From: Streptomyces sp. NBC_00536
GTDB taxonomy: Bacteria > Actinomycetota > Actinomycetes > Streptomycetales > Streptomycetaceae
Direction of reading: 5' to 3'
Assembly: GCF_036346295.1 (NCBI RefSeq)
Contig: NZ_CP107820.1
Span: 1 to 64,000, forward strand
Length of the DNA stretch: 64,000 nucleotides
Each line of letters begins with the position of its first letter. Position 1 is the stretch's first letter. This document shows positions 42,433 to 63,001 of this stretch, in pieces. Below the pieces are notes generated by a model. That model had not been told where the DNA came from and made no database searches. It worked only from the letters and a program-made list of their open reading frames with translations. The position numbers and the translations under genes are program-made.

Positions 42433-43845
42433 TCACGCGGGGGCGGACGCCTCGTGCGGGGTGGCGAAGCCGGGGAGCCAGCGGAGGGCTTCGGCGCGGA
42501 ACGGCAGCTCGCACTCCAGCTGGCACAGGACGGCCGTCGCGGCGCCGACGACGCGGTTCACCAGTACGTACGAGGGCGGCAGGTTGAAGCGGCGCAGCAG
42601 ACTGCCCGGGCCCCGGTCCACGGCCTGGACCACCTCCTCGCGCAGCCACTGCCGGGTGAACCGGTAGGTGTCCTCCCGTGACGGGGTCGCGATGGGCAGG
42701 AGGAACGAGGCGAGGGCGGTGTCGTCGGGCTCGGATCCCGGGCGCATGAACCCCTCCGCGACGAGGAGTTCGTGGGCGGCGCCCCAGTCGCCGAGTTGCG
42801 CGAGCCGGTTCAGGGTGCCCAGGGCGGCCGGGAACCCGTCGGGCAGGTGTTTGACCGCCCCGAAGTCGATGACGCCGAGCCGACCGTCCGCGAGCATCCG
42901 GAAGTTTCCCGGGTGGGGGTCGGCGTGCAGGTATCCGGCGCGTTCGGGGCCGGAGAAGAGGAACCGGGCGTACTTGAGCCCGGCCTCGTCGCGCTGCTGC
43001 TGCGTTCCGTCGCGGATGACGGCCGACAGCGGGGTGCCCTCCATCCACGCGGTGACGAGGACCCGCTCGCTGAAGGCGATCACCTCGGGTACGAGGACCT
43101 CCTCGTCGTCGCGGAAGGCGTCGGCGAAGGCCCGCTGGGCGGCCGCCTCCAGGCGGTAGTCCAGTTCCTCGGTGACCCGTTCGCGCAGTTCGTCGAGCAT
43201 CGGCTCGACGTCGAGGCCGGGCGTGACGAGGGAGAACAGCTTCATCAGGCGGCCGAGCTGCCGGTAGTCGCCGAGCAGGGCCTCCCCCGCGCCCGGGTAC
43301 TGGACCTTCACCGCGACCGGGCGGCCGTCCTTCCACACGGCGCGGTGCACCTGGCCGATGGAGGCGGCGGCGGCCGGTTCGTCGTCGAAGGAGGTGAACC
43401 GCTCGCGCCAGTCGGCGCCCAGTTCGGCGGCGAGCACGGCGTGGATCCGCGGGGCGGGCAGGGCTGGTGCGGCCTCCTGGAGGACGGTGAGGGCGGCTCG
43501 ATAGGGGCCGATGACCTCCGGGGGCAGGGCCGCCTCGAACACGGAGAGCATCTGCCCGAACTTCATCGCTCCGCCCTTGAGTTCGCCCAGGACGCGGAAG
43601 AGCTGCTCGCCGGTGCGGCGCTGGAGTTCGCCGGTGAGCCGCTCGACCGGCTGGCCGAGCAGCCGCTTGCCCATGCGCAGGGCGCTGCGGCCCGCGAAGC
43701 CGAGGGGGAGGGAGGCCAGGCGGGCGTTGCGGGTGAGCGGGGAGCGGGGGATGTCCCGCGCCGGACGGCGCGTGGGGGTGGGGGTGGGGGTGGGCTGGGC
43801 GTCGTCCACGGTCCGGTCCTTCTCGTCCTTCGGGTGGGTGGTCAT
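42433..43845 (-). CDS. ABC1/ADCK (UbiB-like) atypical kinase
   Basis: 470 aa from the ATG at 43845, overlapping the anthranilate synthase stop (ATGA). It has the ADCK signature: [36 protein letters not shown], the metal-binding HADPHPGNF and VIDFG. The N-terminus carries a Thr/Pro repeat. Such proteins are linked to quinone or lipid metabolism; their presence at the end of a biosynthetic operon is unusual. A role in handling a hydrophobic intermediate is speculation. Confidence 0.85.
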
Positions 43846-46124
43846 CTCGGGCTCCCGGCGCCGATGCGGGGCGCGGCGGCGCGGGTGAGCCCGGCGACGG
43901 CGTTCGCGATCAGGGTGTGGCCGGCCCGGCCGTCCGTGGTCATGATCGATTCGGGGTGGAACTGGACTGCCGCGACGGGCAGTTCGCGGTGCTCGATGCC
44001 CATCACGATCCCGTCGGGGGTACGGGCGGTCACGTCGAACACCTCGGGCAGCGTGCCCGTTTCGGCGTACAGGGAGTGGTAGCGGCCCGCGGGGAACCGG
44101 GCGGGCAGGTTCTTGAACACCGTGCCGCCGCCGTCGAGCACGTCCACGGGCGAGGGCTTGCCGTGGACCGGGTGCGGCAGGACGCCGAGGGTGCCGCCGA
44201 AGTGCTCCACCAGGCCCTGGAGGCCCAGGCAGACCCCGAACACGGGCAGGTGCCGGGCCAGGGCCTCCTCGATCAGGGCGGACATCCCGAAGTCCGCGGG
44301 GCGGCCGGGGCCGGGCGAGAGCACCAGCAGGTCGGGGGCGAGCGCGTCGAGCAGCGCCGGCGGGAAACCCGCCCGGTAGGTGAGGACCTCGGCGCCGGTC
44401 TGGCGGACGTAGTCGGCCAGGGTGTGCACGAAGGAGTCCTGGTGGTCGACGAGCAGCACGCGAGGGGGCCGCCCGCTGCCCACCGCGCCCGGGCCCGCGG
44501 TCAGTGGCAGGGCTCGGGCCGGAGTGCGGGGCGCGGGGTTCTCCACCGCGTCGATGAGGGCGAACGCCTTCAGGATCGTCTCGCTCTCCTCCGCCTCCGG
44601 GTCGGAGTCGAAGAGCAGGGTGGCGCCCGCCCGTACGGTGGCCACCCCGTCGCGGATCTGGATGGTGCGCAGGGTCAGGGCCGTGTCCAGGCCTCCGTCG
44701 AAGCCGATGCGGCCGACGGCGCCCCCGTACCAGCGGCGGGGGCTGCGTTCGTGCTCCTCGATGAAGGCGACGGCGGCGCGCTTGGGCGCCCCGGTGACGG
44801 TGACGGCCCACATGTGGGTGAGGAACGCGTCGAGGGCGTCGCGGTCGCCGCGCAGCCGTCCGCGTACGTGGTCGACGGTGTGGATGAGGGTGGAGTACAG
44901 CTCGATCTGGCGGCGGGCGAGCACTTCCACGCTGCCCGGCTCGCACACGCGGGCCTTGTCGTTGCGGTCCACGTCGGTGCACATGGTCAGCTCGGACTCC
45001 TCCTTGCGGGAGTCGAGCAGGGTGCGGATCCGCTCGGCGTCCTCCAGGGGGCCGGCGCCGCGCGCGATGGTGCCGCTGATCGGGCAGGACTCCACCGTGC
45101 GGGCGTCCGGGTCGACCCGGACGAACATCTCGGGCGAGGCCCCGACCAGGTGCTCCCCCGCGGCGAGGTTCATCAGCAGGCCGTAGGGGGCGGGGTTGCG
45201 GGCGCGGAGCCGGCGGAACACCTCCGAGGGGGCGTCGGGGCTGGGGCGGTGGAAGCTCTGGCCGGGTACGGCCTCGAACATCTCCCCGGCCCGGAAGCGC
45301 TGTTGGGCCTTGCGGACCAGCTGCGCGTACTCGCCGGGCGCGTGGTCGCGGTAGGCGGCGGGTTCGGCCGGGGGGCCGTGGGGGGCGGCGGGCGTGGCGC
45401 GGTCGAGGCCGGTGGTGGAGCGGCCCGCGTACGCGAACTCGTAGGTGTGCCGGGTCGCGGCGCCGCGCGTCCGGTCGATCTCCAGGAGGGTGTCCGGCAG
45501 GTGCAGGACGACCGTGCGGTCCCGCGGGTCCCGGTCCTGGTGGAGCGGTACGGGGTCGAAGCCGAGGACCAGGTCGTAGCCGAACGCGCCGTACAGGCCC
45601 CACACCGGGTCCTGCGGACTGGCGAGGGCGGCGACGGCGGCGCGCAGGACGGTGAGGACGGAGCGGCGGCGGGTCCGGTCCTCCTCCTGGCCGACGGGAC
45701 CGGGCTCCGCGCCGACGGCGACGGCGAAAGCGCCCTCCCCGCTGTACGTGCCGTCCGCGGCGTCGTGGAGCGCGCCGTGCGGACGCAGGGCGTCGGCCAG
45801 GGCGGGCAGCAGGACGCGCCCGCGGGCGTTGAGGGCCCGCACGTGGAGGCGGTCGCCGACGGCGGTCAGTTCCACCGGCGGGTCGGCGTATCCCAGGTCG
45901 TACGGGCGGTACCGGCCGGGCTGCTCCGAGCGGCCGGACATGAGCAGGCCGCGCCGGGTGTCGAGGGCCTCCTCCAGGCGGGCCAGTTCCGCCTCGGCCC
46001 CGGCCGGGTCCAGGGGTTCGGAGAGCCGCGTGACCTGTACTCCGGCCGGAGTCGTCCAGTGCCGGGTGGTGGCCGCCGACGCCGAAATCGTGGTGCTTGC
46101 CGTGCTTGCCGTGCTTGCCGTCAT
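43842..46124 (-). CDS. Fused anthranilate synthase (TrpE-TrpG type, PhzE-like)
   Basis: 760 aa, ATG at 46124. The N-terminal TrpE-like part has CTDVDRNDKARVCEPGSVEV, VTVTGAPKRAAVAF and AGATLLFDSDPEAEESET. The C-terminal glutamine amidotransferase has the Cys nucleophile in VFGVCLGLQG and QFHPES. Such one-chain fusions serve secondary metabolism. It gives anthranilate, or 2-amino-2-deoxyisochorismate if PhzE-like; no PhzD-like isochorismatase is present in the window, which favours anthranilate. An AST repeat opens the protein. DAHP synthase in the same operon supplies precursor. Confidence 0.88.
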   Translation of the reverse strand: MTASTASTASTTISASAATTRHWTTPAGVQVTRLSEPLDPAGAEAELARLEEALDTRRGLLMSGRSEQPGRYRPYDLGYADPPVELTAVGDRLHVRALNARGRVLLPALADALRPHGALHDAADGTYSGEGAFAVAVGAEPGPVGQEEDRTRRRSVLTVLRAAVAALASPQDPVWGLYGAFGYDLVLGFDPVPLHQDRDPRDRTVVLHLPDTLLEIDRTRGAATRHTYEFAYAGRSTTGLDRATPAAPHGPPAEPAAYRDHAPGEYAQLVRKAQQRFRAGEMFEAVPGQSFHRPSPDAPSEVFRRLRARNPAPYGLLMNLAAGEHLVGASPEMFVRVDPDARTVESCPISGTIARGAGPLEDAERIRTLLDSRKEESELTMCTDVDRNDKARVCEPGSVEVLARRQIELYSTLIHTVDHVRGRLRGDRDALDAFLTHMWAVTVTGAPKRAAVAFIEEHERSPRRWYGGAVGRIGFDGGLDTALTLRTIQIRDGVATVRAGATLLFDSDPEAEESETILKAFALIDAVENPAPRTPARALPLTAGPGAVGSGRPPRVLLVDHQDSFVHTLADYVRQTGAEVLTYRAGFPPALLDALAPDLLVLSPGPGRPADFGMSALIEEALARHLPVFGVCLGLQGLVEHFGGTLGVLPHPVHGKPSPVDVLDGGGTVFKNLPARFPAGRYHSLYAETGTLPEVFDVTARTPDGIVMGIEHRELPVAAVQFHPESIMTTDGRAGHTLIANAVAGLTRAAAPRIGAGSPR

Positions 46125-46160
46125 CGTGTGGTCGTCCTTCTCGTCGTCGTCGGAGGGCCG

Positions 46161-50077
<3,917 letters not shown>

Positions 50078-50132
50078 GTACGTTCTCCGTTCCGGCGGGC
50101 GGTTGAAAAGTGGGTGGGCAGTGGGGGTGGGG

Positions 50133-51275
50133 CTAGACGCCGAGGTCGCGGCCGATGAGTTCCTTCATGACCTCGTTGGTGCCGCCGTAGATCGCGTGCA
50201 CCCGGTTGTCGACGAAGGCCCTGGCCACGGGGGTCTCGCGCATGAAGCCGTAGCCGCCGTGCAGTTGCACGCAGCGGTCCAGCACGCGGCGCTGGACGTC
50301 GGTGGCCCACCACTTGGCCTTCGCGGCGGCGACGGCGTCGAGGCGTCCCGCGTTGTGCTCTGCGACGGCCCGGTCCACGTACGTGCGGGCCACGTCCAAC
50401 TCGGTTGCCATTTCGGCGAGTTCGAAGCGGACGTGCTGGAAGGAACCGATGGCCTGCCCGAACTGGCTGCGGGACTTGCAGTGGGCGAGCGTCTGCGCGA
50501 AGGCGGTCTCGGCGGCGGCCACGGCGTAGGCGGCGATGCCGAGGCGTTCCTGGGGAAGGTTGTTCGCCAGGTGGAGGAAGGCGCGTCCGGCCCGGCCGAG
50601 CAGGTTCGCGACCGGCACCCGCACCTCGTCGAAGAACAGCTCGGCCGTGTCCTGCGCGGCCATGCCGATCTTCTCCAGCTTGCGGCCGCGCTCGAAGCCG
50701 GGCATGCCGCGCTCGACGACCAGCAGGCTCAGTCCCCGCGAGCCGCTGCCCGGCTCGGTCCGGGCCACCACGATCACGAGGTCCGCGTGGATGCCGTTGG
50801 TGATGAAGGTCTTCGCGCCGCTCAGCACGTAGTGGTCGCCGTCGCGGCGGGCGCTGGTGCGGATGGCCTGCAGGTCGCTGCCGGCCTCGGGTTCGGTCAT
50901 GGCGATGGCCGTGATCAGCTCGCCCGAGCAGAAGCCGGGCAGCCAGCGGCGCTTCTGTTCCTCGGTGGCGAGGTCCAGCAGGTACGGGGCGACGACGTCG
51001 TTGTGGAGGGCGAAGCCGACGCCGGTGGCGCCGACCCGCATGATCTCCTCGCTGATGATCGCCTGGTAGCGGAAGTCGCGCACGCCCCCGCCGCCGTACT
51101 CCTCGGGCACGTCGATGCCGAGCAGTCCGAGCTTTCCGGCGGAGCGCCACACCTGCCGGTCGACCAGCCCGGCCCGTTCCCAGTCGGCGTGGAAGGGGGC
51201 GATCTCCCGGTCCACGAACTCGCGCACCATGTCCCGGAAGTCGAGGTGTTCCCGGTCCAGTTCGCTCTCACGCAC
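50133..51275 (-). CDS. Acyl-CoA (or acyl-carrier) dehydrogenase
   Basis: 380 aa, GTG at 51275. Typical FAD-dependent dehydrogenase: AIAMTEPEAGSDLQAIRTSA, FITNGIHADLVIVVARTEPG, RSQFGQAIGSFQHVRF and the C-terminal YGGTNEVMKELIGRDLG with the catalytic Glu. It would introduce a C=C bond alpha-beta to a thioester, on CoA or on one of the operon's carrier proteins. It overlaps the thioesterase gene by 8 bp. Confidence 0.88.
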   Translation of the reverse strand: MRESELDREHLDFRDMVREFVDREIAPFHADWERAGLVDRQVWRSAGKLGLLGIDVPEEYGGGGVRDFRYQAIISEEIMRVGATGVGFALHNDVVAPYLLDLATEEQKRRWLPGFCSGELITAIAMTEPEAGSDLQAIRTSARRDGDHYVLSGAKTFITNGIHADLVIVVARTEPGSGSRGLSLLVVERGMPGFERGRKLEKIGMAAQDTAELFFDEVRVPVANLLGRAGRAFLHLANNLPQERLGIAAYAVAAAETAFAQTLAHCKSRSQFGQAIGSFQHVRFELAEMATELDVARTYVDRAVAEHNAGRLDAVAAAKAKWWATDVQRRVLDRCVQLHGGYGFMRETPVARAFVDNRVHAIYGGTNEVMKELIGRDLGV

Positions 51276-51768
51276 GGTTGCTCCCGGCCCGGTGGATGAT
51301 CTGCTCGACCGTCCCGGTACAGGCGGGCCGCCCGTCCTGGAGGAAACGCACCTCGGCGACCGCGCGCCGGGTCGAGCAGCTGGTCAGTACGGCTTCCACG
51401 GTCACCGGACCCGGCAGCAGCGGCGCGTGGTAGGCGACGGACAGCCCGGCGGTCAGGAAGCCCGACCCGTCGGGGATCGCCGACAGCATCACCAGGCCCG
51501 CGAAGTGGTCGACGAGGCAGGCGATCCAGCCGCCGAAGACGACCCCGGGGGTCAGCGTCAGGTTCGCGTCGAACTCCGTCTCGCAGGTGACCAGGCCGGG
51601 CAGCCAGGAGGTGGCCGGCGGCAGGGCGAGGGTGTGCGCGGCGGGCGGGTCGGGCACGGTTCCGTCGGCCAGCCCGGTCAGGGTCCGCCGCCCGCTGGTG
51701 TCGGCGTCGGGGGCGGCGAGGCCGCGCATGCGGCCGGGCCGGTCGGGGGGCAGGGTGACTTCGAGCAT
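51268..51768 (-). CDS. Hotdog-fold thioesterase (PaaI-like)
   Basis: 166 aa, ATG at 51768. A hotdog-fold pattern: TPGVVFGGWIACLVDHFAGL (the helix and its nearby acidic residue), then FLTAGLSVAYHAPLLPGPV. Such enzymes hydrolyse acyl-CoA or acyl-carrier thioesters. The overlap with the dehydrogenase gene suggests action on the same acyl chain, either for release or for editing. Confidence 0.8.
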   Translation of the reverse strand: MLEVTLPPDRPGRMRGLAAPDADTSGRRTLTGLADGTVPDPPAAHTLALPPATSWLPGLVTCETEFDANLTLTPGVVFGGWIACLVDHFAGLVMLSAIPDGSGFLTAGLSVAYHAPLLPGPVTVEAVLTSCSTRRAVAEVRFLQDGRPACTGTVEQIIHRAGSNRA

Positions 51769-51851
51769 GTCGGTCTCTCCGCTGGTCCAGGGGCGGGACG
51801 GGGGCGTGGTCCCGCGCGGTGCGGGACGGGCGGGGGGCGGGCGGAGCCCGG

Positions 51852-52979: not shown

Positions 52980-54535
52980 GGGGTGTTCTCGCTTTCGATG
53001 ACGAGGCGGTGGGCCAGCTCCCGCAGCCGGGGCCGCAGTGCCTTTCCGGCGGGGTTGCGCGGGACGGTCTCCAGCGGCAGGAAGTGGCTGGGCCGCTTGT
53101 AGGCGGCCAGTCCCTCGATGCACAGCCCGAGCAGTTCGGCGGCGTCGAAGGCCTCGGGGGTCCGGGGCTGGACGAAGGCCACGGGGATCTGGCCCCACAC
53201 CGGTGATTCCACCGGAACCACGACGACGTCGGCGACGTTCGGTGACTGCCGCAGGACGTGCTCGATCTCGGCCGGGTAGACGTTCTGGCCGCCGCGCAGG
53301 ATCAGGTCGTTGCGGCGGTCGACGATCCAGACCAGGCCGTCCGCGTCGACGCACCCCATGTCGTGGGTGTTGAGCCAGCCATCGCGCAGTACCTCGGCGG
53401 TGGCCTCGGGGCGCTTCCAGTAGCCCTGCATCAGGCCGGCGCCGGCCACCTGGACCTCGCCGAGGGTGCCCTGTCCGACCTCCCGGCCGTCGCTGTCGGT
53501 GATCCGCAGCGCGGTGCCGAGCATGGGGCGTCCGACGCAGACCGCGCCGGGAACCGGGGGTGCGCCGACCTCGGTGTGCGGGGCGAGCGAGACGACCGGT
53601 CCGCCGCCCTCCGTGATGCCGAAGACGGTCTGGAGCTCGACGCCGAGCCGCCCGCGCGCCTCGACGGCCAGCTCGGCGGGCATCGGGGCCGCGCCGTGCA
53701 GGAGCAGCCGCAGCGCACCGAGGTCGGTGCTGGGCAGCGCCCGCGCGTCGAGGGTGAGGCGGACCATGGACGGCACGAGGAAGGCGTGTTCGACCTGCCA
53801 GCGCTCCAGGGCGGCGAGGCAGCCCTGCGGGGTGAACCGGTCCAGGACGCAGACCGTGCCGCCCGCCGCGAGGTGGTCGAGCGCGATCACCACGCTGCCG
53901 TGGAAGAGCGGACCGGCGTTGAGGAAGACGGTGCCGGGCCGCGGCCCCACGTCGGCCAGCCACGACAGCGCGTTCAGCTGGAGGGAGCGCTGGTCGACGA
54001 CGACGCCCTTGGCGGTGCCGGTGGTGGCGGAGGTGTGCAGGATCATCACCGGGTCGGCGAGGCCGGCGCCCTCGTGGGGCGTCGGCTCCGGCCCGGCGTC
54101 CGGGAGGCCGGCGTCCGGGAGGCCGGCGTCCGGGAGGCCGGCGTCCGGGAGGCCGGCGACGGCGGTGATGTCCGTTAGCGGCAGCCCGGGGTACAGGGCG
54201 GCGAGCCGGGCGAGGCCCTCGGCGTCGGCCACCGCGGCGGCCGGTTCCACGGATCCGGCGATCGCCTCGATCTCGCGGTCGGTGAGGGCCGGGTTGACCG
54301 GTACGGCCACCACCGCGGCGGACGCGCAGGCCAGGTAGGTCTCGATGACCTCGACCCGGTTGCCGCTGAGGACCAGGACGCGGCTGCCGCGCGGGACGTC
54401 CCGGCGCAGCCGGGCGGCCAGCGCCTCCACGTCGCGGTGCAGGCGGCGCCAGCTGACGTCACGGCCGGCGTCGCGCAGGGCGAGGGCGTCGGGGGTGCGG
54501 TCGAGTCCGCGGCGCACCACGTGGTTGAGCCACAT
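52976..54535 (-). CDS. AMP-dependent acyl/aryl ligase 1
   Basis: 519 aa, ATG at 54535. Adenylate-forming enzyme: P-loop-like TSATTGTAKGVVVD, FGITEGGGPV, then NTHDMGCVDADGLVWIVDR and the hinge region ILRGGQNVYPAEIEH; the C-terminal Lys in RNPAGKALRP. Substrate may be anthranilate or a fatty or aryl acid. Close by lies carrier protein 1. GLPDA is repeated four times at residues ~128-147, encoded by a 15-bp repeat. Confidence 0.85.
   Translation of the reverse strand: MWLNHVVRRGLDRTPDALALRDAGRDVSWRRLHRDVEALAARLRRDVPRGSRVLVLSGNRVEVIETYLACASAAVVAVPVNPALTDREIEAIAGSVEPAAAVADAEGLARLAALYPGLPLTDITAVAGLPDAGLPDAGLPDAGLPDAGPEPTPHEGAGLADPVMILHTSATTGTAKGVVVDQRSLQLNALSWLADVGPRPGTVFLNAGPLFHGSVVIALDHLAAGGTVCVLDRFTPQGCLAALERWQVEHAFLVPSMVRLTLDARALPSTDLGALRLLLHGAAPMPAELAVEARGRLGVELQTVFGITEGGGPVVSLAPHTEVGAPPVPGAVCVGRPMLGTALRITDSDGREVGQGTLGEVQVAGAGLMQGYWKRPEATAEVLRDGWLNTHDMGCVDADGLVWIVDRRNDLILRGGQNVYPAEIEHVLRQSPNVADVVVVPVESPVWGQIPVAFVQPRTPEAFDAAELLGLCIEGLAAYKRPSHFLPLETVPRNPAGKALRPRLRELAHRLVIESENTP
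54095..54154. repeat. Four perfect 15-bp tandem repeats within AMP ligase 1
   Basis: GGCGTCCGGGAGGCC repeated four times (54095-54154), giving GLPDA units in a loop between the N-terminal part and the nucleotide-binding motif. In frame and probably tolerated. Confidence 0.85.
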
Positions 54536-54536
54536 C

Positions 54537-54764
54537 TCAGGCCGCCCCGTTCCCGACCAGCAGGGCGACGGCGTGGACGGAGGTCAGCTCCAGCAGCTCC
54601 TCGTCCTCCAGCGGCCGGCCGAGGTGGTCCTCGATGTTCAGGGCGAGCCGGATGAGTTCGCCGGAGTTGACGCCCGCTCCGGCGAGCGGGGCCCCGTCGG
54701 TGATCCGGTCGAGCAGGGCCGGGTGGTCCAGGCTCTGCCGTACGAGGGTGCGTGCCAGGCTCAT
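54537..54764 (-). CDS. Stand-alone acyl carrier protein 1
   Basis: 75 aa, ATG at 54764 overlapping the transglutaminase-like stop. The Ser for phosphopantetheine lies in AGVNSGELIRLALNIED (residue ~34); the following helix EDEELLELTSVHAVALL is typical. Ligase 1 begins two bases downstream, so it is the likely loading enzyme. The PPTase at the other end of the operon would activate it. Confidence 0.8.
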   Translation of the reverse strand: MSLARTLVRQSLDHPALLDRITDGAPLAGAGVNSGELIRLALNIEDHLGRPLEDEELLELTSVHAVALLVGNGAA

Positions 54765-55798
54765 GCGTTCCTCCGGGGGCGGGCGCTGACGCCGACCATC
54801 GCCCAGTAGGGGGCGGGTGCGCCGTCGAAGTAGACGAGGGGTTCGGCGCTGTCCGTGCGGCACGGCAGCAGCCGGTTGAAGCGGCTGCCGAAGCAGGCGG
54901 CGGCGAACTCCGGGGACTCGGCGACCCCGCGTTCGTCGCCGACGGTGGCGACGAAGGCGAAGACCGGGTCGAGGGATTTGTGCACCCCGTCCTCGACGAC
55001 GTCGCACCAGGCGTGGTCGCTGCCGAAGAGGCCGAGGAGGTAGCCGCGCCGTGCGGTGGCTTCCAGGCCGGCCGCGCGCAGCCGGTCGGCCAGCAGCCGG
55101 GAGGCGACGACGCAGTCGGCGATGCCCATCTCCCAGGCCCGGTGGTGGTCGGCGCGCAGCGCCTCCGGCACCGTCTGGTAGGTGACCCGGCGGGAGGCGA
55201 GGCCCTCGACGACCTCGTTCCACGCCGCGTGGATGCGCGGGTCGCGCACGCTCTGGTCGGCGCCGGTCAGGCGGACGGTGGCCGTGTAGCCGCCGACGCG
55301 CAAGGGGTCCTCGAAGGGGTGTTCCGAGAGGAGTTCCACCCCGGGCGCCGACAGGTCGGGCACCCGTACGGTCACGTCGGGCAGCCGGCCCGCGGGGGCG
55401 GGCGCGCCCGCATCCTCACCGCCCGCGGTCCGGGCGGGGTGGACGCCGATCTCCCAGTCCCGGGGCGCGTACCAGCTGTCACGGGAGGAGGCGGCGAACC
55501 GCATGAGGAAGCGCAGGCCCAGCTCCGGCACGGTCTGTCCGGTCCCGCAGAACATGCCGACGTTCATCAGGTCGTCGTAGTCGAACAGGGGGCCGCGCGC
55601 GGAGTCGGTGACGTGCGGCAGTCCTTCGGCGGCCAGCCGGGCCACCTGCTCCGGGGCGGCGCGCAGGGCCTGCGCCGCGGTCCGGGCGTCGGTGTCGTAG
55701 CGCCCGATGTCCCGGGGCACCGCGGTGAACCGGCCGAGGGCGCCGAGCAGCGCTTCGGGCGCCGCGCTCTCCACGGTCATCGCGCTCTTCACGGTCAT
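54761..55798 (-). CDS. Transglutaminase-like protein, possible amide-forming enzyme
   Basis: 345 aa, ATG at 55798. A transglutaminase-core triad: Cys in MGIADCVVASRLLADRL, His in GSDHAWCDVVEDG, Asp in KSLDPVFAF. In some pathways (AdmF) such domains join a carrier-bound acyl group to an amine. It sits between the two carrier-protein genes with ATGA overlaps on both sides, so it may condense the two bound units. Some members merely hydrolyse or deamidate, so the role is inferred from context. Confidence 0.7.
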   Translation of the reverse strand: MTVKSAMTVESAAPEALLGALGRFTAVPRDIGRYDTDARTAAQALRAAPEQVARLAAEGLPHVTDSARGPLFDYDDLMNVGMFCGTGQTVPELGLRFLMRFAASSRDSWYAPRDWEIGVHPARTAGGEDAGAPAPAGRLPDVTVRVPDLSAPGVELLSEHPFEDPLRVGGYTATVRLTGADQSVRDPRIHAAWNEVVEGLASRRVTYQTVPEALRADHHRAWEMGIADCVVASRLLADRLRAAGLEATARRGYLLGLFGSDHAWCDVVEDGVHKSLDPVFAFVATVGDERGVAESPEFAAACFGSRFNRLLPCRTDSAEPLVYFDGAPAPYWAMVGVSARPRRNA

Positions 55799-56052
55799 AC
55801 GGAGCTGCCCTCCGGGATGAGGGAGGCGACGAAGGCGGCCAGTTCGCCGACGGTCGCCGTCTCGAAGAGGAAGTCGTCGGGGATGACGACGTCGTAGGCG
55901 TCCTCGATGTCGGTGATCGCGCGCAGCGCCTTGACGGATTCGATGCCGGGTACGGCCGTGAGCGGCTTGTCCGGGTCGATCGAGGTCGCGGGGACGTTGG
56001 CCTGGTGGGCCAGGGCGCTTACGACGGTGTCCAGGGTCTTCTCGGCGCTCAC
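55795..56052 (-). CDS. Stand-alone acyl carrier protein 2
   Basis: 85 aa. Phosphopantetheine Ser in AVPGIESVKALRAITDIED (residue ~39), then IPDDFLFETATVGELAAFV as in fatty-acyl-type carrier proteins. The fatty acyl-AMP ligase gene overlaps its start (ATGA), so it is the probable acceptor of the fatty chain. Confidence 0.85.
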   Translation of the reverse strand: MSAEKTLDTVVSALAHQANVPATSIDPDKPLTAVPGIESVKALRAITDIEDAYDVVIPDDFLFETATVGELAAFVASLIPEGSSV

Positions 56053-57734
56053 TGGGAGTGTCCTTCCGGTGCGGTGGTCAGGGTGGTGGTCAGGGCCGCG
56101 GTCTGCTGCCGGTAGAGGTCGGCCGCGCCGGAGCGCTTGACCTTGCCGGAGCTGGTGAAGGGCAGGCTCTGCGGGGAGACGGCGAGGGTCTCCACGGCGC
56201 CCAGGCCCAGGTGTTCCAGGAGGCGCGCGCGGATGGCCTCGCCGACGGCGGCGGCGCTGTCGCCGTCGAGCCGGGTCTCCCAGATGACGACCATGCGTTC
56301 CTCGCCCTCGACGTCCCAGGCGAACGCGGCACAGTGCCTGCGGTCGACCCCGGGGGTGGCTTTGACGATCTCTTCGACGTCCTCGGCGTAGTAGTTCTGG
56401 CCCCGGACGACGGCCATCGCCTTCATCCGGCCGATGACGTACAGCTCGCGGTCGTGCAGGAATCCGATGTCGCCGGTACGGAGCAACCCGTCGGCGGTGA
56501 AGGGCTGCTCGGCGGCGGGCAGGCCGAGGTAGCCGGTGGTGACGGGCGCTCCGCCGATCTGCACCTCGCCCACGGTGCCCTCGGGCAGCGGTGTGCCCTC
56601 GGCGTCACCGATGCGGACCTCGATGCCGGCGACGGCGGGGCCGCAGGAGACGACGGTGCGCACGGTCGGTCCGGCCTCGGGGCTCTCGGTGACCCGGTCG
56701 CCGACGGACAGGTCGGCGCGGTCCACCAGCAGGCTGCGGTAGTCCGTGCGCGGGATGCCGCTGCTGACGATGAGGGTGGCCTCGGCGAGGCCGTAGTTCG
56801 GCTGGACGACCTGCGGCCGCAGCCCGTAGGGGGCGAAGGTCCGCTGGAAGGCTTCCAGGCTGCTCAGCCTGACCGGTTCGGAGCCGTTGCCGCCGTAGCG
56901 CCAGGCGGAGAGGTCCAGGTCGTCGGGGATGCCCTTGGCGGCGGCCGCGACGAGGTAGTCGTAGAAGAAGTTGGGCGCGGGCAGGATCGTGGACCGGGAC
57001 GCGGCGAACTCGCCGAGCCACTGCATGGGGCGGCGCACGAAGTCGCCGGGCTGCCACAGCGAGGTCTTGGTGCCGTGGCGCAGCGAGGCGAGCATGGTGA
57101 ACAGGCCCATGTCGTGGAAGAGCGGCAGCCATTGGCCGAGCGCGTCCTCGGGTCCCCAGCGGGTGCCGTCCCCGATGGCGTCGAGTCCGGCGTCGATGTT
57201 GTCGTGGGTGACCACGACCCCCTTGGGCGCCGAGGTGCTGCCCGAGGTGTACTGGATGACGGCCGCGGCGTCGCCGCCGCCGCGCACCGGCGGGAGGTCC
57301 ACGGCGTCCCGGGGCGGTTCGGCGATGTCGATGACCGGCAGGTGCGGTACGGCGGCCGCGACGCGGGAGACGATGCGGCTGCCGAGGCTCCCGTCGACGA
57401 GCAGGGCGTCGAGGGAGGCGTCGGCCGCGATCCGCTGGATGTGCGCGGCGTAGGCGTCGGCCCCGCCGAAGGCGACCGGCAGCGCGAGCGGGACGGCCGC
57501 GGCGTCGAGCCGCAGCAGGGCCAGCAGGCCGCGCACCCAGGGCTCGCCGTTGGCCATGAGCAGTCCGGCGCGGCGCGGGAGGCGGCCGTCGCAGGCGGCC
57601 AGGATGCCGCCCGCGGTGCGCTCGGCGCGGGCGAACAGGGCGGGTCCGCTGACGGGTTCCTCCTGGCGGGAGGGGGTGTGGAGCATCGTCGCGTCGTGTA
57701 CGGACGCGGAGAGCAGGTTCCAGAGCTGGACCAT
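56049..57734 (-). CDS. Fatty acyl-AMP ligase (FAAL)
   Basis: 561 aa, ATG at 57734. FAAL pattern: YTSGSTSAPKGVVVTHDNI, WLPLFHDMGLFTML, GGNGSEPVRLSSLEAF, NYGLAEATLIVSS, RTGDIGFLHDRELYVIGRMK and a C-terminal LPFTSSGKVKRS. FAALs activate a fatty acid as the adenylate and hand it to a carrier protein; carrier protein 2 follows at once. Chain length unknown. Confidence 0.88.
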   Translation of the reverse strand: MVQLWNLLSASVHDATMLHTPSRQEEPVSGPALFARAERTAGGILAACDGRLPRRAGLLMANGEPWVRGLLALLRLDAAAVPLALPVAFGGADAYAAHIQRIAADASLDALLVDGSLGSRIVSRVAAAVPHLPVIDIAEPPRDAVDLPPVRGGGDAAAVIQYTSGSTSAPKGVVVTHDNIDAGLDAIGDGTRWGPEDALGQWLPLFHDMGLFTMLASLRHGTKTSLWQPGDFVRRPMQWLGEFAASRSTILPAPNFFYDYLVAAAAKGIPDDLDLSAWRYGGNGSEPVRLSSLEAFQRTFAPYGLRPQVVQPNYGLAEATLIVSSGIPRTDYRSLLVDRADLSVGDRVTESPEAGPTVRTVVSCGPAVAGIEVRIGDAEGTPLPEGTVGEVQIGGAPVTTGYLGLPAAEQPFTADGLLRTGDIGFLHDRELYVIGRMKAMAVVRGQNYYAEDVEEIVKATPGVDRRHCAAFAWDVEGEERMVVIWETRLDGDSAAAVGEAIRARLLEHLGLGAVETLAVSPQSLPFTSSGKVKRSGAADLYRQQTAALTTTLTTAPEGHSQ

Positions 57735-57739
57735 TTCGG

Positions 57740-59359
57740 TCAGGACTCCTTCGCGGGTGTGGTGGTGCGCTGTGTGGTGGTGCGCTGGATGCGGCGGGCG
57801 AGCTTGCGGCGGAGCACGGAGCGGCGGACCTTGTACGAACCGGTGATGGGCATCGCCTCCCACTCCCAAAAGCGCACCTGGAGGTCGGGCAGCCCGGCCT
57901 CGGCGGCGACGGCGCGGAAGCGCTCGGGGTCGGGGACGGTGCCGGGGCGGGGGCAGGCGACGGCGAACACCGCGCTGTCCTCCGTGTCCTCGGCCTTCAC
58001 CAGGACCAGTTCGACCAGCTCGGGCAGGGCCTCCAGGAGGTGGTCCTCCTTCTCCAGGAGGCTGCCGACGCCGTCGACGTGCTCGACGATGCGGTCGAGC
58101 AGTTCGAGGGAGCCGTCGTCGAGTTGACGCCCGATGTCGCCCATCGGCCACCAGGAGTCCTGCGGGGGCATCGGGTCGCCGCCGACGTAGCCGCGCATGC
58201 GACCGGGCGAGCGGGTCTCGATGATGCCGGGGGTGTTGGCGGGCTGCGGGTTGCCCCGCTCGTCGACGATGCGGATCTCCATGCCGCCGCCGGCGTGACC
58301 GACGTTGCGCGGCGAGTAGTCCGCGGACTCCTCGCGGGTCACGATGCGCAGGCAGATCGGGCCGGACTCGGTCTGGCCGTACGCCTGGAAGTAGTGGGCG
58401 TCGGGGTGCTCGGAGGCGTTCAGCAGGGCCCGTACGGTGCGCGGGTGCATCGCGTCGAAGGTGCTGATGAACCGCTCGACGTGCTGGAAGGGGCGGTCCG
58501 GGTCGTCGGCCAGCGACTCCCACTGGATGTAGACGTTGGGGTGCGTCTCCAGGGAGGTCGGGCGGTGTTCGAGCATCAGGCGCTTGACGTTGGCCGGGTC
58601 CGGGTCGGCGATGGCCAGGGCGGGCATCGCGGTTTCGAGCGAGGCGAGGGTGCCGGCGCAGGTGCGGGCGTGGACGAAGGACAGGTGCTTGGCGTTCAGG
58701 TCGTCCGTCGAGTACTGGTCCCGGAAGATCATGATCATCGGGGCGACCATGCCGAACAGCGAACGGGTCGAGTGGGCCGCCATCTTCGGAGCGCCGGTGG
58801 TCCCCGAGGAGTGGGTGATGACGAACCACTCGTCCTCGTCGCGCGGGTTCGCCACGTGCGGCAGCCGGTCCTGGACCGGGACGACCCAGTTCTGCTCGGT
58901 CGGCTCCAGGCACAGCACGTTGCGCACCAGGAGCCGCAGGGCGCGGCGGGCATCGCCGAACAGGGAGAGCCCGAGGGAGTCGACGAGCAGGTACGGGTTG
59001 TCCAGCCGGGCGAAACATTCGAGCAGCTCGCCGACCTCCATGCCGGAGGACAGCAGGGCGGGCAGGGCGCCGATCTTGCCGAGGGCGCACATGACGGCCT
59101 CGACCTCGATGTGGTTGCGCTGGACCACGGCGACCACGTCGCCCTTGCGGATCCCGGCGGCCCACAGCCGGTCGGCGTAGTCGTCGATGGCCCGCGCGAA
59201 CTCGGCGAAGGTGCGGACCGGGCCGTCGTAAGTGCGCCAGGCCGTGTCGGACAGGAAGGGGGTGTCGGGGTGCTTCTCCGCGGCGACGGTGGGGAGCACC
59301 CCGAGGGATGCGGTGGGCTGGGGGATCACGTCGAGGTTGAGTGCGGATATGTCGGGCAT
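57740..59359 (-). CDS. AMP-dependent ligase 2, unusual subgroup
   Basis: 539 aa from the ATG at 59359, which has GAGGGA six bases upstream; an ATG at 59365 is in frame. Adenylate-forming motifs: THSSGTTGAPKMAAHSTRS, YGQTESGPICLR and MPITGSYKVRRS, with SWWPMGDIGRQLDDGSL. It differs from both neighbouring ligases. In CreM/Tri17-type pathways an AMP-ligase homologue uses nitrite to build the N-N bond, so this or ligase 1 is a candidate. That assignment is an inference from the nitrite-type genes nearby. Confidence 0.7.
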   Translation of the reverse strand: MPDISALNLDVIPQPTASLGVLPTVAAEKHPDTPFLSDTAWRTYDGPVRTFAEFARAIDDYADRLWAAGIRKGDVVAVVQRNHIEVEAVMCALGKIGALPALLSSGMEVGELLECFARLDNPYLLVDSLGLSLFGDARRALRLLVRNVLCLEPTEQNWVVPVQDRLPHVANPRDEDEWFVITHSSGTTGAPKMAAHSTRSLFGMVAPMIMIFRDQYSTDDLNAKHLSFVHARTCAGTLASLETAMPALAIADPDPANVKRLMLEHRPTSLETHPNVYIQWESLADDPDRPFQHVERFISTFDAMHPRTVRALLNASEHPDAHYFQAYGQTESGPICLRIVTREESADYSPRNVGHAGGGMEIRIVDERGNPQPANTPGIIETRSPGRMRGYVGGDPMPPQDSWWPMGDIGRQLDDGSLELLDRIVEHVDGVGSLLEKEDHLLEALPELVELVLVKAEDTEDSAVFAVACPRPGTVPDPERFRAVAAEAGLPDLQVRFWEWEAMPITGSYKVRRSVLRRKLARRIQRTTTQRTTTPAKES

Positions 59360-59718
59360 GGTCATCCCTCTGCTCGGCCTGGCTGGTGCTTTCGGGCAGC
59401 GCTGATTCCGCCCTGGGGCGGTCGTGGGGCGCTGGGGTTTCGTGGTCTTGCGGCAAGCGGCTCGAAGCGGCCGACACCAGATAAGAGAGGGGGAGGGGCC
59501 GTCACACTCCACCGAGATTCGAATATTTTTCCGGAGCCTCTCGCTCCGGCCGTGCGGGCCTAATATCCGCGCTGCGTACGGGAGTTGCAGGGGTTGCGTA
59601 CGGGACGTGCAGGGGGCGTGTACGGGCCCCCGCGCCGTCCGCGCGAACGCGTCCGGCCCGGCCCGCGCCCCCCGGGAGGGGGCGAGGACCGGGCCGGACG
59701 CGGAACGGCGGCGGGGTT
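59360..59718. promoter_or_regulatory. Intergenic region with AT-rich patch and inverted repeat, possible promoter
   Basis: 359 bases between the epoxide-hydrolase-like gene and AMP ligase 2. An AT-rich patch (59517-59530, with the palindrome ATTCGAAT) abuts a 7-bp inverted repeat CCGGAGC/GCTCCGG at 59531-59549. On the minus strand A residues follow the hairpin, so it is not a classical terminator; a promoter or operator for the long ligase operon is likelier. No gene seen. Confidence 0.4.
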
Positions 59719-60615
59719 TCAGTCGCCCCTGGGGAAGTCGGAGAAGAGCGTGCGGGCGGTCTCGGCGACCAGGTCGGGGCGCTCCTCGTGCAGGTAGTGC
59801 CCGCAGTCGGCGAGCACCTCCACCCGCAGGTCGTCGGCGTGCCGGCCGGCGCCCGACAGCACGCTCGGCGGCAGCATGAAGTCGTGGGCCCCCGCCATGA
59901 TCACGGTCGGTGTGGTCAGCCGGTGCTTCTTGAAGCTGCCCAGCAGCAGCTTCGCGATGTCCCGCAGCGCGAAGGCCCGGTGCAGCGCCTCGCCGGCCCG
60001 CGCCCGGTCCGGCTCCCGGCTCGACGTGACGAACCCGTCCAGCACGGCGGGCTCCCAGACGGCCGGGTCGGTGACCCCCTTGCGCATCAGGTAGCGGGTG
60101 AAGGCCGGGCGGTTGCGCAGGACCCAGCGGCCCAGCAGCGGTTGTTCGAGCAGCGCCGTGTACCAGAACCGCCAGGCCTGCGGCATCAGCCGGTGGTGCA
60201 GCGGCCACGGGTGGAGCATGTTCAGCGCGAGGAAGTGGCTGAACCGCTCCGGGGCCCGCAGACAGAGGTGGAAGCCGGTCCACGCACCCCAGTCGTGGCC
60301 GATGAGCGCGGCCCGCTCCAGCCCGAGCCCGTCCATCAGCGCGAGGACGTCGGCCACCCGGCTGTCGGTGTCGTACCCCCCGGCGGGTGCTTCGGACCAG
60401 CCGAAGCCGCGCAGGTCCACGCAGATCAGCCGGTGGTCGCCGGCCAGCAGCGGGATCAGCCGCCGCCATCCGTACCAGTGCTGCGGGAAGCCGTGCAGCA
60501 GTACCACGGGCGTGCCCCGGCCCGCCTCCGCGACGTGCAGCCGCACCCCCCGCACGTCGACGTAGTGGTGCTGGACGCCTTCCAGCTCGGGCATCGGCGG
60601 TGTCCGGTCCTGCAT
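59719..60615 (-). CDS. Epoxide hydrolase/dehalogenase-type alpha/beta hydrolase
   Basis: 298 aa, ATG at 60615. Motifs: LLHGFPQHWYGWRR (oxyanion HGxP), nucleophile Asp in LIGHDWGAWTGF rather than Ser, and the His in CGHYLHEERP. An Asp nucleophile is typical of epoxide hydrolases and haloalkane dehalogenases. It lies within the biosynthetic locus on the same strand and may modify a product with an epoxide or halide; its part in the pathway is unknown. Confidence 0.82.
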   Translation of the reverse strand: MQDRTPPMPELEGVQHHYVDVRGVRLHVAEAGRGTPVVLLHGFPQHWYGWRRLIPLLAGDHRLICVDLRGFGWSEAPAGGYDTDSRVADVLALMDGLGLERAALIGHDWGAWTGFHLCLRAPERFSHFLALNMLHPWPLHHRLMPQAWRFWYTALLEQPLLGRWVLRNRPAFTRYLMRKGVTDPAVWEPAVLDGFVTSSREPDRARAGEALHRAFALRDIAKLLLGSFKKHRLTTPTVIMAGAHDFMLPPSVLSGAGRHADDLRVEVLADCGHYLHEERPDLVAETARTLFSDFPRGD

Positions 60616-60800
60616 GGCAACTCCCAGGGGGCGAGGGGCGATCGGTCGGCCGACCGGGCCCGTGCGGGCCGGTCACCCCGTCAGGAGGTGGCGACGGCGC
60701 CGGACGTTCCGGCCGGAAATGCGACGAACCTCACCGGAACCCTTCCGGGCCCGGCGGCCTCGCGACGCGACCTGCGACCTGCGACCCGCGAGCGGTCGGG

Positions 60801-62051
60801 TCAGGGCGTGGCGCACAACTCCGCGACGAGTTCCGCCAGTCGGGCGGTCTGCGCGCCGTTCAGCCGGGGGTCGCAGGCCGTCTCGTACCGCAGCGGGAGG
60901 TCCCGCTCCGCCACCGCGGGCGCGCCGCCCACGCATTCGGTGACATCGGCCGGGGTGGCCTCCAGATGGATGCCGCCGGGCCAGCCGCGGGCCGCGCGCA
61001 CCGCGGCGAAGAACCCGCGGATCTCCTCGCCCACCACGTCCACGTGGCGGGTCTTGTGGCCCGTACCGCTGGTGTACGTGTTCCCGTGGACCGGGTCGCA
61101 CACCCAGACCACGGGGTGGCCGAGCCGGGCGACCCGCTCCACCAGGGGAGGCAGCGCGGAGCGCACCGCGTCCGCGCCCATCCGCGAGATGAGCACCAGC
61201 CGGCCCGGCCGGCGGTCCGGGTCGAGCCGCGCGCACAGCTCGGCCAGGCGCTCCGGATCCGTGCCCGGGCCGACCTTCACCCCGACCGGGTTGGCCACCC
61301 CGGCCAGGAACCGGACGTGCGCGCCGTCGGGTTCACCGGTGCGCGCGCCGATCCAGGGCAGGTGGGTGGAGGTCAGGAACCAGCCGCCGGTCACCGGGTC
61401 GCGCCGCACCAGCGGCTCCTCGTAGTCGAGCAGCAGGGCCTCGTGGCTGGTCCACACGGCGGGGGCGCCGTCCATCGCGGGGTCCTGCACGGTCATCCCG
61501 GACGCGGCGAGTTCGCGCAGCAGGGCGAGCACGTCACGGGCGTGGGCGTGGCCGCGCAGCAGCCGCGTCGCGTCGGGGACGCGGGCGGCGGGCGTGGGGG
61601 CGGGATCGTTGACCAAGTGGCCGCGGAACGAGGGCAGTACGAGGTCACCGACGCGCTCGGTGGGCGAGGAGCGCGGTTTGGCGTACTGGCCCGCGATCCG
61701 CCCGATCGGGATCACCGGTCGGCGCAGGGCGCGTCCCAGCGTCCGGGCGGTGGTGTGGAGCAGTTCCACCCGGGCGGCGGTGCCCGCGAAGGTGGGTGTC
61801 TCGAAGGTCTCCGCGCAGTCGCCCAGTTGCACCACGAAGGCCTCCGCGCGGGCGGCCCGGGCGAGCCCCCGGCGCAGTTCCAGGATCTCGCCGGGGCGGA
61901 CGAGGGGTGCGGTGCCCGCGAGCCGGGCGCGCACCCGGCGCAGCAGGGCGTGGTCGGGCCATTCGGGCTGCTGGGCGGCCGGGTGCCGACGCCAGGCGGC
62001 GGGCGTCCAGTCCGCCGGACGGGGCGGGGCGAGCAGGGTGGGTGCGTCCAT
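60801..62051 (-). CDS. Class II DAHP synthase, PhzC-like
   Basis: 416 aa from the ATG at 62051 with GGAGGT upstream. Signatures of the class II family: VVQLGDCAETFETPTF, GQYAKPRSSPTERVGD, STHLPWIGARTGEPDGAH, VANPVGVKVGPGTDPE, and CDPVHGNTYTSGTGHKTR. It makes 3-deoxy-arabino-heptulosonate 7-phosphate, the first shikimate intermediate. It is a short copy relative to the primary-metabolism type (~450 aa), as in secondary-metabolite clusters. It supplies chorismate for anthranilate. Confidence 0.9.
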   Translation of the reverse strand: MDAPTLLAPPRPADWTPAAWRRHPAAQQPEWPDHALLRRVRARLAGTAPLVRPGEILELRRGLARAARAEAFVVQLGDCAETFETPTFAGTAARVELLHTTARTLGRALRRPVIPIGRIAGQYAKPRSSPTERVGDLVLPSFRGHLVNDPAPTPAARVPDATRLLRGHAHARDVLALLRELAASGMTVQDPAMDGAPAVWTSHEALLLDYEEPLVRRDPVTGGWFLTSTHLPWIGARTGEPDGAHVRFLAGVANPVGVKVGPGTDPERLAELCARLDPDRRPGRLVLISRMGADAVRSALPPLVERVARLGHPVVWVCDPVHGNTYTSGTGHKTRHVDVVGEEIRGFFAAVRAARGWPGGIHLEATPADVTECVGGAPAVAERDLPLRYETACDPRLNGAQTARLAELVAELCATP

Positions 62052-62248
62052 GACGGCATGACCTCCGTGAGGGTGGTGTGGTCCGTGAGGGTGATCGCGT
62101 ACGGATGTGAGCGCGTGCGGGATGGGAGCGCGTGCGGGTGGGGGCCCGTACGCGTGATCACGTGCGGGTGCGGGCCCGTACGGACGAACGGCCGGAGCCG
62201 GGGCCGCGGGCCGGTGAGGACGGGGCCGTGGCCCGGGAGGCGGGCCGG

Positions 62249-63001
62249 TCAGGATGCGGTCGGGGTGCCCAGCGGGAGGGCCCAGCACAGGACGCCCCGC
62301 GGGAGCTTGCGGACGCTCACCCGCAGCCGCAGGGCGGGGCGGCTCGGGGCATGGGCCAGGAATCCGTCGGCGTCCGCGGTGAGCAACAGGTCGCGCAGGC
62401 CCCGCAGTTCGGGGCCGAGGTGCGGGCTGAGGGCCTTGTACGCGGCCTCCTTGGCGGAGTACATCGCGAGCAGCCGCTGCTCCGCCGCGTCCCCCGCCTC
62501 GTGCAGCGCGGCCGTCTCGGCCCCGCGCAGCACCAGGTGGGCCGCCCGCAGGGGCGGGCCGGTCAGCTCCAGGTCGACGCCCAGCGAGGAGAACCGCTCC
62601 GAGGGCCCGGCCACGGCCACGGCGACCCCGTCGGAGTGGCTGATCGACGCCGAGATCCCGGCGGGCAGGAGCGGGCGCGACCCCTCGAACAGCACCGCGT
62701 CGGCGGTCAGTCCCGCCGCGCGCAGCGCACGGTGCAGTGCGCCACGGCCGATCAGGAAGTCGGCCCGGCGCCGGGGCGGCATGTCCTTCGCCATCCGGCG
62801 CTCGGCCTCGCGCACCGCCACGGGCGGCCCCTCGTGGACGGAACAGGTGCCGAAGCCGAGCCCCGGTTCGCGCGGCCTGGAGTCCGCCAGGGCGCGCGGC
62901 AGTGTCAGTCGGGTCCTCAGCGGGGTCCCCATGGTCAGCACGACTGCCTTCCCCGTTCCTGTCGTTCCCGCATTGCGCTCCGGCAACTGGGCGAACCGCA
63001 T
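62249..63001 (-). CDS. Sfp-type 4'-phosphopantetheinyl transferase
   Basis: 250 aa. Sfp signatures: ISASISHSDGVAVAVAG, SSLGVDLELTG (metal-binding Asp and Glu) and LLAMYSAKEAAYKALSP. It converts apo carrier proteins to the holo form, here presumably the two stand-alone carriers of the operon. It is the first gene on the minus strand of the locus and diverges from the SRPBCC-like gene. Confidence 0.88.
   Translation of the reverse strand: MRFAQLPERNAGTTGTGKAVVLTMGTPLRTRLTLPRALADSRPREPGLGFGTCSVHEGPPVAVREAERRMAKDMPPRRRADFLIGRGALHRALRAAGLTADAVLFEGSRPLLPAGISASISHSDGVAVAVAGPSERFSSLGVDLELTGPPLRAAHLVLRGAETAALHEAGDAAEQRLLAMYSAKEAAYKALSPHLGPELRGLRDLLLTADADGFLAHAPSRPALRLRVSVRKLPRGVLCWALPLGTPTAS

Follow-up and report, generated by a model that had tools for sequence, protein, structure and literature searches.

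A conserved Streptomyces gene cluster that joins a predicted nitrite-forming enzyme pair to fatty-acid activation and a transglutaminase-like protein, a candidate nitrogen–nitrogen pathway

Introduction

The described systems closest to the gene cluster analysed here, a set of 16 genes that profile searches place on the minus strand of a 64-kb stretch of Streptomyces sp. NBC_00536 DNA (the window), at positions 42433–63001, are the triacsin, spinamycin, penzonemycin, ava/cma and dob clusters. The triacsin cluster (tri) resembles the window in its CreD/CreE homologues, its CreM-like ligase and its lipid product with a nitrogen–nitrogen (N–N) bond, and the spinamycin cluster (spi) differs in placing a polyketide chain on the aromatic and is not known to have a pair of fatty acyl-AMP ligase (FAAL) and transglutaminase (TGase). 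The triacsin cluster is named in PMC11429834 and PMC13061610; unlike the window, it forms a hydrazone with lysine and glycine machinery (PMC13061610), whereas the lysine N-hydroxylase family PF13434 is not among the general profile matches of the window's cluster genes. The spinamycin pathway is like the one we propose in its nitrite-dependent diazotisation of an aromatic amine on the way to a hydrazide (PMC11705231).

The penzonemycin cluster (pzm) of Streptomyces sp. SCSIO 40020 shares with the window a 3-deoxy-D-arabino-heptulosonate 7-phosphate (DAHP) synthase, an anthranilate-synthase-like enzyme, CreD, CreE, AMP-forming ligases and a proposed aromatic diazo intermediate, but it uses 3-hydroxyanthranilate (with an isochorismatase and a dehydrogenase) and an acetolactate synthase, and neither a FAAL, a carrier pair nor a gene of TGase-like or AurF-like type is in the excerpted description of pzm1 to pzm17 (PMC9323291). 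The ava and cma clusters resemble the window in their aspartate–nitrosuccinate (ANS) nitrite pair, their ligase and carrier for an aromatic starter and their AMP-forming diazotase, and about half have no nitrite genes of their own; they differ in the 3-amino-4-hydroxybenzoate (3,4-AHBA) starter, the type II polyketide synthase (PKS), the removal of the diazo group and a diazotase (AvaA6 type) that is distant from Lig1, the candidate diazotase of the window (PMC10777205). The dob cluster of Nocardia ninae, like the window, has an AurF-family diiron protein in an N–N pathway, where Dob3 oxidises hydrazones; unlike it, it is PKS-based, proceeds by hydrazone oxidation and, in the text at hand, has no CreDE-based diazotisation (PMC13061610).

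Compared with these systems, the locus is a real, conserved cluster of the known nitrite/diazotase kind, and what is unusual in it is the lipid arm together with the coupling enzyme. No published cluster with this gene set was found in the open-licence literature; subscription journals may describe one. Among the matches listed in that literature, no nitrosuccinate paper mentions transglutaminase, and the words 'anthranilate', 'fatty acyl' and 'transglutaminase' are all absent from the main text of an N–N review (PMC11705231). We propose, with a rough probability of 0.45, that the cluster makes a conjugate of a fatty acyl group and anthranilate and uses its own nitrite on the aromatic nitrogen.

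Results and discussion

Conservation of the gene core

Ten Streptomyces and Kitasatospora loci, recovered by scanning GTDB genomes with the TGase-like protein as the query, make up the type-A set. The gene order Lig1, FAAL-like ligase, carrier protein ACP1, TGase-like protein, carrier protein ACP2, ligase 2 and AurF-like diiron protein is kept in all ten of them, and the gene set is therefore more than a chance assembly. A hot-dog thioesterase occurs in nine loci (the L028 contig ends after the AurF-like gene), an acyl-CoA dehydrogenase in eight (L033 has no match and the L028 contig ends earlier) and anthranilate synthase in seven (none is seen in L028, L029 and L033, whose stretches end near there). 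CreE is found in 6/10 loci and is directly followed by CreD in three (L024–L026); CreD lies about 17 kb from CreE in L032 and at the opposite end of the stretch in L033. Close relatives of the TGase-like protein (E below 1e-180) occur in three genomes besides that of the window, out of 295 sampled in the genus.

A second arrangement, type B, is present in genomes G031, G154 and G159, where relatives of Lig1 (35–36%), the TGase-like protein (33–38%), ligase 2 (42%), anthranilate synthase (57–59%), CreE (58–59%) and CreD (56–60%) are accompanied by genes for an α/β-hydrolase-like protein, a thioester-reductase-like protein, an MMPL exporter and a flavin adenine dinucleotide (FAD) hydroxylase like salicylyl-CoA 5-hydroxylase; some of these roles were profiled in a single type-B cluster and carried over to the other two on size and place. 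A carrier-like protein of 93–95 residues, recognised by eye and without a Pfam match in the one case tested, adjoins the type-B Lig1, and ligase 2 is called about 110 residues longer in G031 and G154. Since the gene calls in the type-B stretches read include neither a FAAL-like nor an AurF-like gene, and ACP2 was found in G159 only, the common core of the two types is Lig1, TGase-like protein, ligase 2, anthranilate synthase, CreE and CreD. A further genome, G174, has the TGase–ACP2–ligase 2 segment; it is not among the 103 Lig1-family genomes described below and gave no CreE or CreD match.

The predicted nitrite-forming pair

CreE aligns along its length with 8CP2, a crystal structure of an L-aspartate N-hydroxylase that has been characterised (PMC10404684). 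Counted by eye on the alignment, CreE retains the residues corresponding to Trp51 and Asn413 of 8CP2 but not those corresponding to its peripheral Arg593 and Arg597. CreD narrowly clears the nitrosuccinate lyase equivalog NF052556 despite being split by an insert; both of its halves match CreD 5XNY and the 10-residue lyase loop is kept. The two are solidly predicted to be a nitrite-forming pair. In a tree of CreE proteins, six of the seven from these clusters group together (support 82/97) and that of L033 takes no resolved position, so that presence of CreDE followed by loss is the simpler history.

The CreD insert spans residues ~220–383, about 160 codons in frame, and is rich in Gly, Thr, Ala and Pro, being encoded by a hexanucleotide array. 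Eight aligned homologues lack it (two carry a few Gly-rich residues at that site), and the best 120 homologues are 430–529 residues long compared with 636 in the window. The array could reflect true hypervariability or a fault of the assembly. Smaller repeats occur in the same strain, as a Val-Pro run near the C-terminus of CreE (48104–48151) and as four GLPDA units in ligase 2 (54095–54154). The genome also holds a second nitrite cluster (C1:5083001–5103000), with genes for CreE, CreD, an AvaA6-like diazotase, a prephenate-dehydrogenase-like protein, an anthranilate-synthase-like protein and DAHP synthase.

Linkage of the Lig1 family to nitrite genes

Lig1 belongs to a ligase family with matches in 103 of the 295 sampled genomes of the genus (among the matches listed) and in 5/396 genomes of a phylum sample. 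CreD was searched in 80 of the 103 genomes, and the 58 rows with at least 600 bits were kept; the 51 rows dropped, at 513–591 bits, proved in a later check to lie near none of 43 Lig1-family loci tested against them. Among the matches listed, and with the window's own pair excluded, 43 of the 116 Lig1-family loci in the 80 genomes are within 30 kb of CreD, where even placement on a 9-Mb genome would give ~0.67 pairs by chance; the linkage is about 60 times chance. The distance is at most 3.6 kb in 20 of the 43 linked loci. At L192, Lig1 immediately precedes CreE and CreD. Seen from the lyase side, a Lig1-family gene lies no more than 30 kb away at 36 of the 58 CreD loci. Two genomes (G068 and G108) have the pair twice, near both chromosome ends.

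The sequence relationships of Lig1 point the same way. In a 65-row tree, on long branches, the Lig1 family groups with AvaA6-like diazotases to the exclusion of seven other ligases (support 100/99), and a second sampling of 70 rows agrees (100/99); both trees were built without a CreM sequence, and five rows of the first that were scored as not near CreD (L162, L167, L172, L174 and L181) come from genomes not in the CreD search. By sequence, the PDB entry most similar to Lig1 is 9XB8 (E 2.6e-20; deposited as a FadD ligase), and the AvaA6-like diazotase encoded in this genome has that entry as its nearest PDB match too (E 1.8e-223). We lean towards the view that Lig1 uses nitrite, as a CreM-like ligase in the broad sense.

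Carriers, partner ligases and the TGase-like protein

Two of the three type-A ligases, the FAAL-like one and ligase 2, have a carrier gene next to them, and Lig1 is left without one. The resulting symmetry, FAAL–ACP1–TGase–ACP2–ligase 2, recurs in all ten loci and counts in favour of two carrier-bound units that meet at the TGase-like protein. The relatives of ligase 2 in type B lie close to anthranilate synthase, and ligase 2 probably loads anthranilate on ACP2, whose G-x-(N/G)-S-G motif is kept in the orthologues displayed.

The TGase-like protein has the triad expected of AdmF/GdmF-like amide synthases, with Cys229, His262 and Asp277 invariant in all 37 sequences compared, and the fold matches of its confident AlphaFold model, some of them weak, include arylamine N-acyltransferases and an amide synthase. 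From gene order only, we infer that it joins two carrier-bound units. Its N-terminal part (residues 30–85) resembles BldC-type winged helices in a fold comparison and is perhaps a carrier-docking domain. At ten other loci (L011, L012, L015–L017 and L019–L023), a distant TGase-like gene and an AurF-like gene are at most 2 kb apart, apparently a wider TGase–diiron pairing outside this cluster.

The AurF-like diiron protein

Residues E142, H145, E192, E222 and H225 of the diiron protein are invariant in 13 of 13 aligned sequences. The seventh iron ligand of AurF is a His four residues before the second EXXH glutamate; at this position the window has Val and none of eight aligned orthologues has His, which does occur in distant homologues (L089, L090 and one of two L091 proteins). 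We do not call the protein an N-oxygenase. Its best fold match, CmlI, is weak (E 2.3e-3) and comes from a low-confidence model with a predicted local distance difference test (pLDDT) of 69.

A proposed pathway and its alternatives

The gene identities, their conservation, the nitrite pair and the linkage of Lig1 to nitrite genes are established at the level of sequence, and from these we infer what each substrate is, in which order the steps run and which functional group results. Anthranilate would come from DAHP synthase and anthranilate synthase and be loaded onto ACP2 by ligase 2, and CreE with CreD would convert L-aspartate to nitrite. The FAAL-like ligase would transfer a fatty acid to ACP1, perhaps with desaturation by the acyl-CoA dehydrogenase. 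Lig1 would activate nitrite at the expense of ATP, leading to diazotisation (N-nitrosation) of the free arylamine. The TGase-like protein, whose gene lies between those of the carriers, would form an amide-type bond between the carrier-bound units, giving an amide, or a hydrazide if the diazo group were reduced beforehand. The AurF-like diiron protein could next oxidise nitrogen or carbon, and the thioesterase or the hydrolase would release the product.

An N–N outcome of this pathway is likely. The more specific proposal of a new class of N–N lipid is doubtful: here an anthraniloyl carrier would be diazotised with the cluster's own nitrite by a new clade of AMP-forming ligases and coupled to a fatty acyl group on another carrier by an enzyme of putative TGase fold, with neither nonribosomal peptide synthetase (NRPS) nor PKS, to an acylhydrazide or azo lipid tuned by the diiron protein. 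Were it true, the system would be modular, because the ligase–TGase core is reused with other partners in type B.

The earlier note on this DNA had described a candidate N–N lipid–aromatic system and knew of no described cluster with its combination of genes. The latter agrees with the literature search above. Of the former, the lipid–aromatic part finds nitrite genes, anthranilate supply, fatty-acid activation, carriers and a TGase-like protein together in one conserved cluster. The N–N part gains from the linkage of Lig1 to the lyase and from type B, where Lig1, the TGase-like protein and CreDE occur together, but it is tempered by a precedent for loss of the diazo group (PMC10777205) and by three loci without adjacent CreDE. 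The FAAL named in the note has fatty acyl-AMP ligase as its best family but misses the curated cut-off, as do all of the best 25 NCBIfam families listed for it, so it can be called FAAL-like only.

Besides that missed cut-off, several observations weigh against our proposal. An arylamine that is acylated first cannot form a diazonium, and no diazo reductase is assigned among the cluster genes. ACP2 had to be rejected as part of every type-B cluster, given its single tblastn match. Among the nine type-A loci not cut short, three have no CreE adjoining the cluster: in L027, L030 and L031 the dehydrogenase is directly followed by anthranilate synthase, with no CreDE between. One of them, S. lucensis (L031; genome G302, which shares its contig with G164; completeness 100), gave no match to CreE (E at most 1e-20) or CreD (E at most 1e-60) genome-wide, and in L029 (genome G300) CreE stands in the cluster at a contig end with no CreD match in the genome. 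It is possible that all three CreDE-less genomes have another nitrite source: S. lucensis has two narG genes, S. flaveolus has one narG and distant CreE-like and CreD-like genes on separate contigs, and S. gossypii has two other CreE places, one with an adjacent CreD, and no narG over the cut-off. Since narG is common, these sources are consistent with the proposal and do not prove it.

Lig1 itself also contributes to this side. It scores 53.8 bits on the AvaA6 diazotase model NF058622 (cut-off 975) and is not classed as an AvaA6 equivalog, and general acyl-CoA ligase models outscore the AvaA6 model. An 18-row subclade of its family is not near CreD in any of the 13 searched genomes, the other five rows lying outside the search; in the stretches read (L190 and L191) its members sit beside genes for an anthranilate-synthase-like protein, a ligase and a FAD hydroxylase, the last profiled in one of them. 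Some Lig1-family members may therefore be plain aryl-acid ligases. Separately, this subclade marks a seemingly common orphan cluster in the genus.

Diazotisation-dependent deamination, in which the amine is diazotised, the diazo group is then lost and an acylated aromatic without an N–N bond results, is an unlikely alternative. Its precedent is the biosynthesis of avenalumic and p-coumaric acid by ANS genes and an AMP-ligase diazotase, and 72 of 134 ava-type clusters have no nitrite genes of their own, like three loci here (PMC10777205). However, the profile results of the 16 genes show no NAD(P)H-dependent reductase family beyond the matches of the flavoprotein CreE and of the acyl-CoA dehydrogenase (AvaA7 itself was not compared), and the AurF-like oxidase is kept in 10/10 loci.

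We give equally little credence to Lig1 being an ordinary aryl-acid or fatty-acid ligase, the product a plain N-acyl anthranilate lipid, and the CreDE nitrite an input to another step or pathway. The scores of Lig1 on general ligase models, the CreD-distant subclade and the three loci without adjoining CreE would all fit, as would the carrier-like gene beside Lig1 in type B and the second CreDE set of this genome with an AvaA6-like ligase of its own. What speaks against it is the linkage of the Lig1 family to CreD, the type-A carriers that adjoin the other two ligases and leave none for Lig1, the common grouping of six of the seven cluster CreE proteins (at 82/97 only), and the narG or CreE/CreD genes found elsewhere in the genomes of the three CreE-less loci. 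Finally, N-hydroxylation of the aromatic amine by the AurF-like protein, followed by addition of nitrite that yields a lipid metallophore with an N-nitrosohydroxylamine (diazeniumdiolate) or azoxy group, can draw on the PF11583 match, the CmlI fold match, the hydrazone-oxidising Dob3 and the AurF-like gene reportedly involved in the N–N chemistry of fragin, but it is very unlikely given the poor structure model, the lack in the window's clade of the extra His ligand of AurF (some distant homologues have it) and the presence of Lig1, TGase-like protein and CreDE in type-B stretches where no AurF-like gene was called.

If the proposed nitrite treatment of a fatty-acyl/anthranilate conjugate is correct, nitrite-dependent N–N chemistry would be tied to fatty-acid activation and TGase-type coupling, a combination that we did not find described, and part of the Lig1 family, which the AvaA6 model misses, would consist of probable nitrite-using enzymes and serve as a marker for N–N clusters. 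We regard the cluster as a good lead towards nitrogen–nitrogen natural products of a new type.

Gene layout and cluster edges

The window is the start of a 267,650-base contig in a 9.15-Mb genome of four contigs. In the direction of transcription, the 16 genes encode a phosphopantetheinyl transferase (PPTase), class II DAHP synthase, α/β-hydrolase, Lig1, FAAL-like ligase, ACP1, TGase-like protein and ACP2, followed by ligase 2, AurF-like diiron protein, hot-dog thioesterase, acyl-CoA dehydrogenase, CreE, CreD, anthranilate synthase and ABC1 kinase (Table 1). The genes are tightly packed: neighbours overlap by 4 bp at six junctions and by 8 bp at one, and are otherwise separated by 1 to 359 bp. 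All the classes that the earlier note had listed as a same-strand set (DAHP synthase, anthranilate synthase, nitrite pair, FAAL with carrier, second carrier with ligase and TGase-like protein, oxidative enzymes) are indeed there. Both of its AMP ligases are present, but it had left out the third, Lig1, and the PPTase, α/β-hydrolase, hot-dog thioesterase and ABC1-type kinase also belong to the set.

Table 1. Predicted features of the cluster and its right flank, in window coordinates (ECF, extracytoplasmic function)
Feature	Position	Strand	Basis
ABC1/UbiB-type atypical kinase, 470 aa	42433..43845	-	PF03109 E 1.5e-55
Fused anthranilate synthase TrpE-TrpG (TrpE clade 3), 760 aa	43842..46124	-	TIGR01815 930.3 bits (cut-off 739.15); PRK13566 994 (cut-off 645)
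Nitrosuccinate lyase, CreD type, 636 aa	46161..48071	-	NF052556 650.9 bits (cut-off 650); CreD 5XNY E 5.8e-148
In-frame hexanucleotide repeat array within lyase gene	46943..47415	-	Period 6, ~79 copies; Gly/Thr/Ala/Pro-rich protein
L-aspartate N-hydroxylase/nitrosuccinate synthase, CreE type, 669 aa	48068..50077	-	8CP2 E 3.5e-219
Acyl-CoA (perhaps acyl-ACP) dehydrogenase, 380 aa	50133..51275	-	PF02771/PF02770/PF00441
Hot-dog fold thioesterase, 166 aa	51268..51768	-	PF03061 E 5.2e-10 (longer reading frame); TIGR00369 23.7 bits, under cut-off 36.6
AurF-family ferritin-like diiron protein, 375 aa	51852..52979	-	PF11583 61.7 bits (cut-off 29.6)
AMP-forming ligase 2, 519 aa	52976..54535	-	PF00501, PF13193
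Carrier protein ACP2, 75 aa	54537..54764	-	PF00550 28.3 bits (cut-off 20.8)
Putative transglutaminase/NAT-fold protein, 345 aa	54761..55798	-	Cys229-His262-Asp277; AlphaFold pLDDT 93
Carrier protein ACP1, 85 aa	55795..56052	-	PF00550 42.8 bits
Fatty acyl-AMP ligase-like, 561 aa	56049..57734	-	Best NCBIfam family fatty acyl-AMP ligase (PRK09192), 323 bits (cut-off 600)
Lig1, AMP-forming ligase, 539 aa, candidate nitrite-dependent diazotase	57740..59359	-	Lyase linkage, trees, best PDB match 9XB8
Alpha/beta hydrolase, 298 aa	59719..60615	-	PF00561 E 3.4e-34
Class II DAHP synthase, 416 aa	60801..62051	-	PF01474 E 5e-138 (longer reading frame); TIGR01358 460 bits, under cut-off 615
Sfp-type phosphopantetheinyl transferase, 250 aa	62249..63001	-	PF17837, PF01648
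Protein without Pfam match (E at most 1), convergent with ECF sigma gene	63181..63753	+	tblastn: 7/10 type-A loci
ECF-type sigma factor gene, cut by window end	63766..64000	-	tblastn: 6/10 type-A loci; L031 homologue with PF08281/PF04542

Of the bounds 42433..63001 given in the note, the left one fits and the right one is too short. In L030, L031 (which is on the contig of L094) and L096, anthranilate synthase is followed by a UbiB/ABC1 relative (76–78%), and the four genes to the left of 42433 have no tblastn match in the other loci, several of which end too early; 42433 is therefore a fair left edge. On the right, the Pfam-less protein at 63181–63753 has tblastn matches in L025, L026 and L029–L033, the ECF sigma gene has them in L025 and L029–L033, and L094 and L097 match both. 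As these two genes recur, and a second ECF sigma/small-protein pair lies ~3 kb further along the contig (L099, 3492–4513), the right edge may reach ~67.5 kb of the contig.

An MMPL exporter gene is present in L026 (also L097), L027, L032, L033 and S. lucensis (L095), and is partial in L029 and L031; the window, L024 and L025 gave no match to it. Around the type-A clusters, an ECF sigma gene is repeatedly paired with a small Pfam-less protein, in some cases with the two genes convergent and overlapping; these are possibly sigma/anti-sigma-like regulatory pairs.

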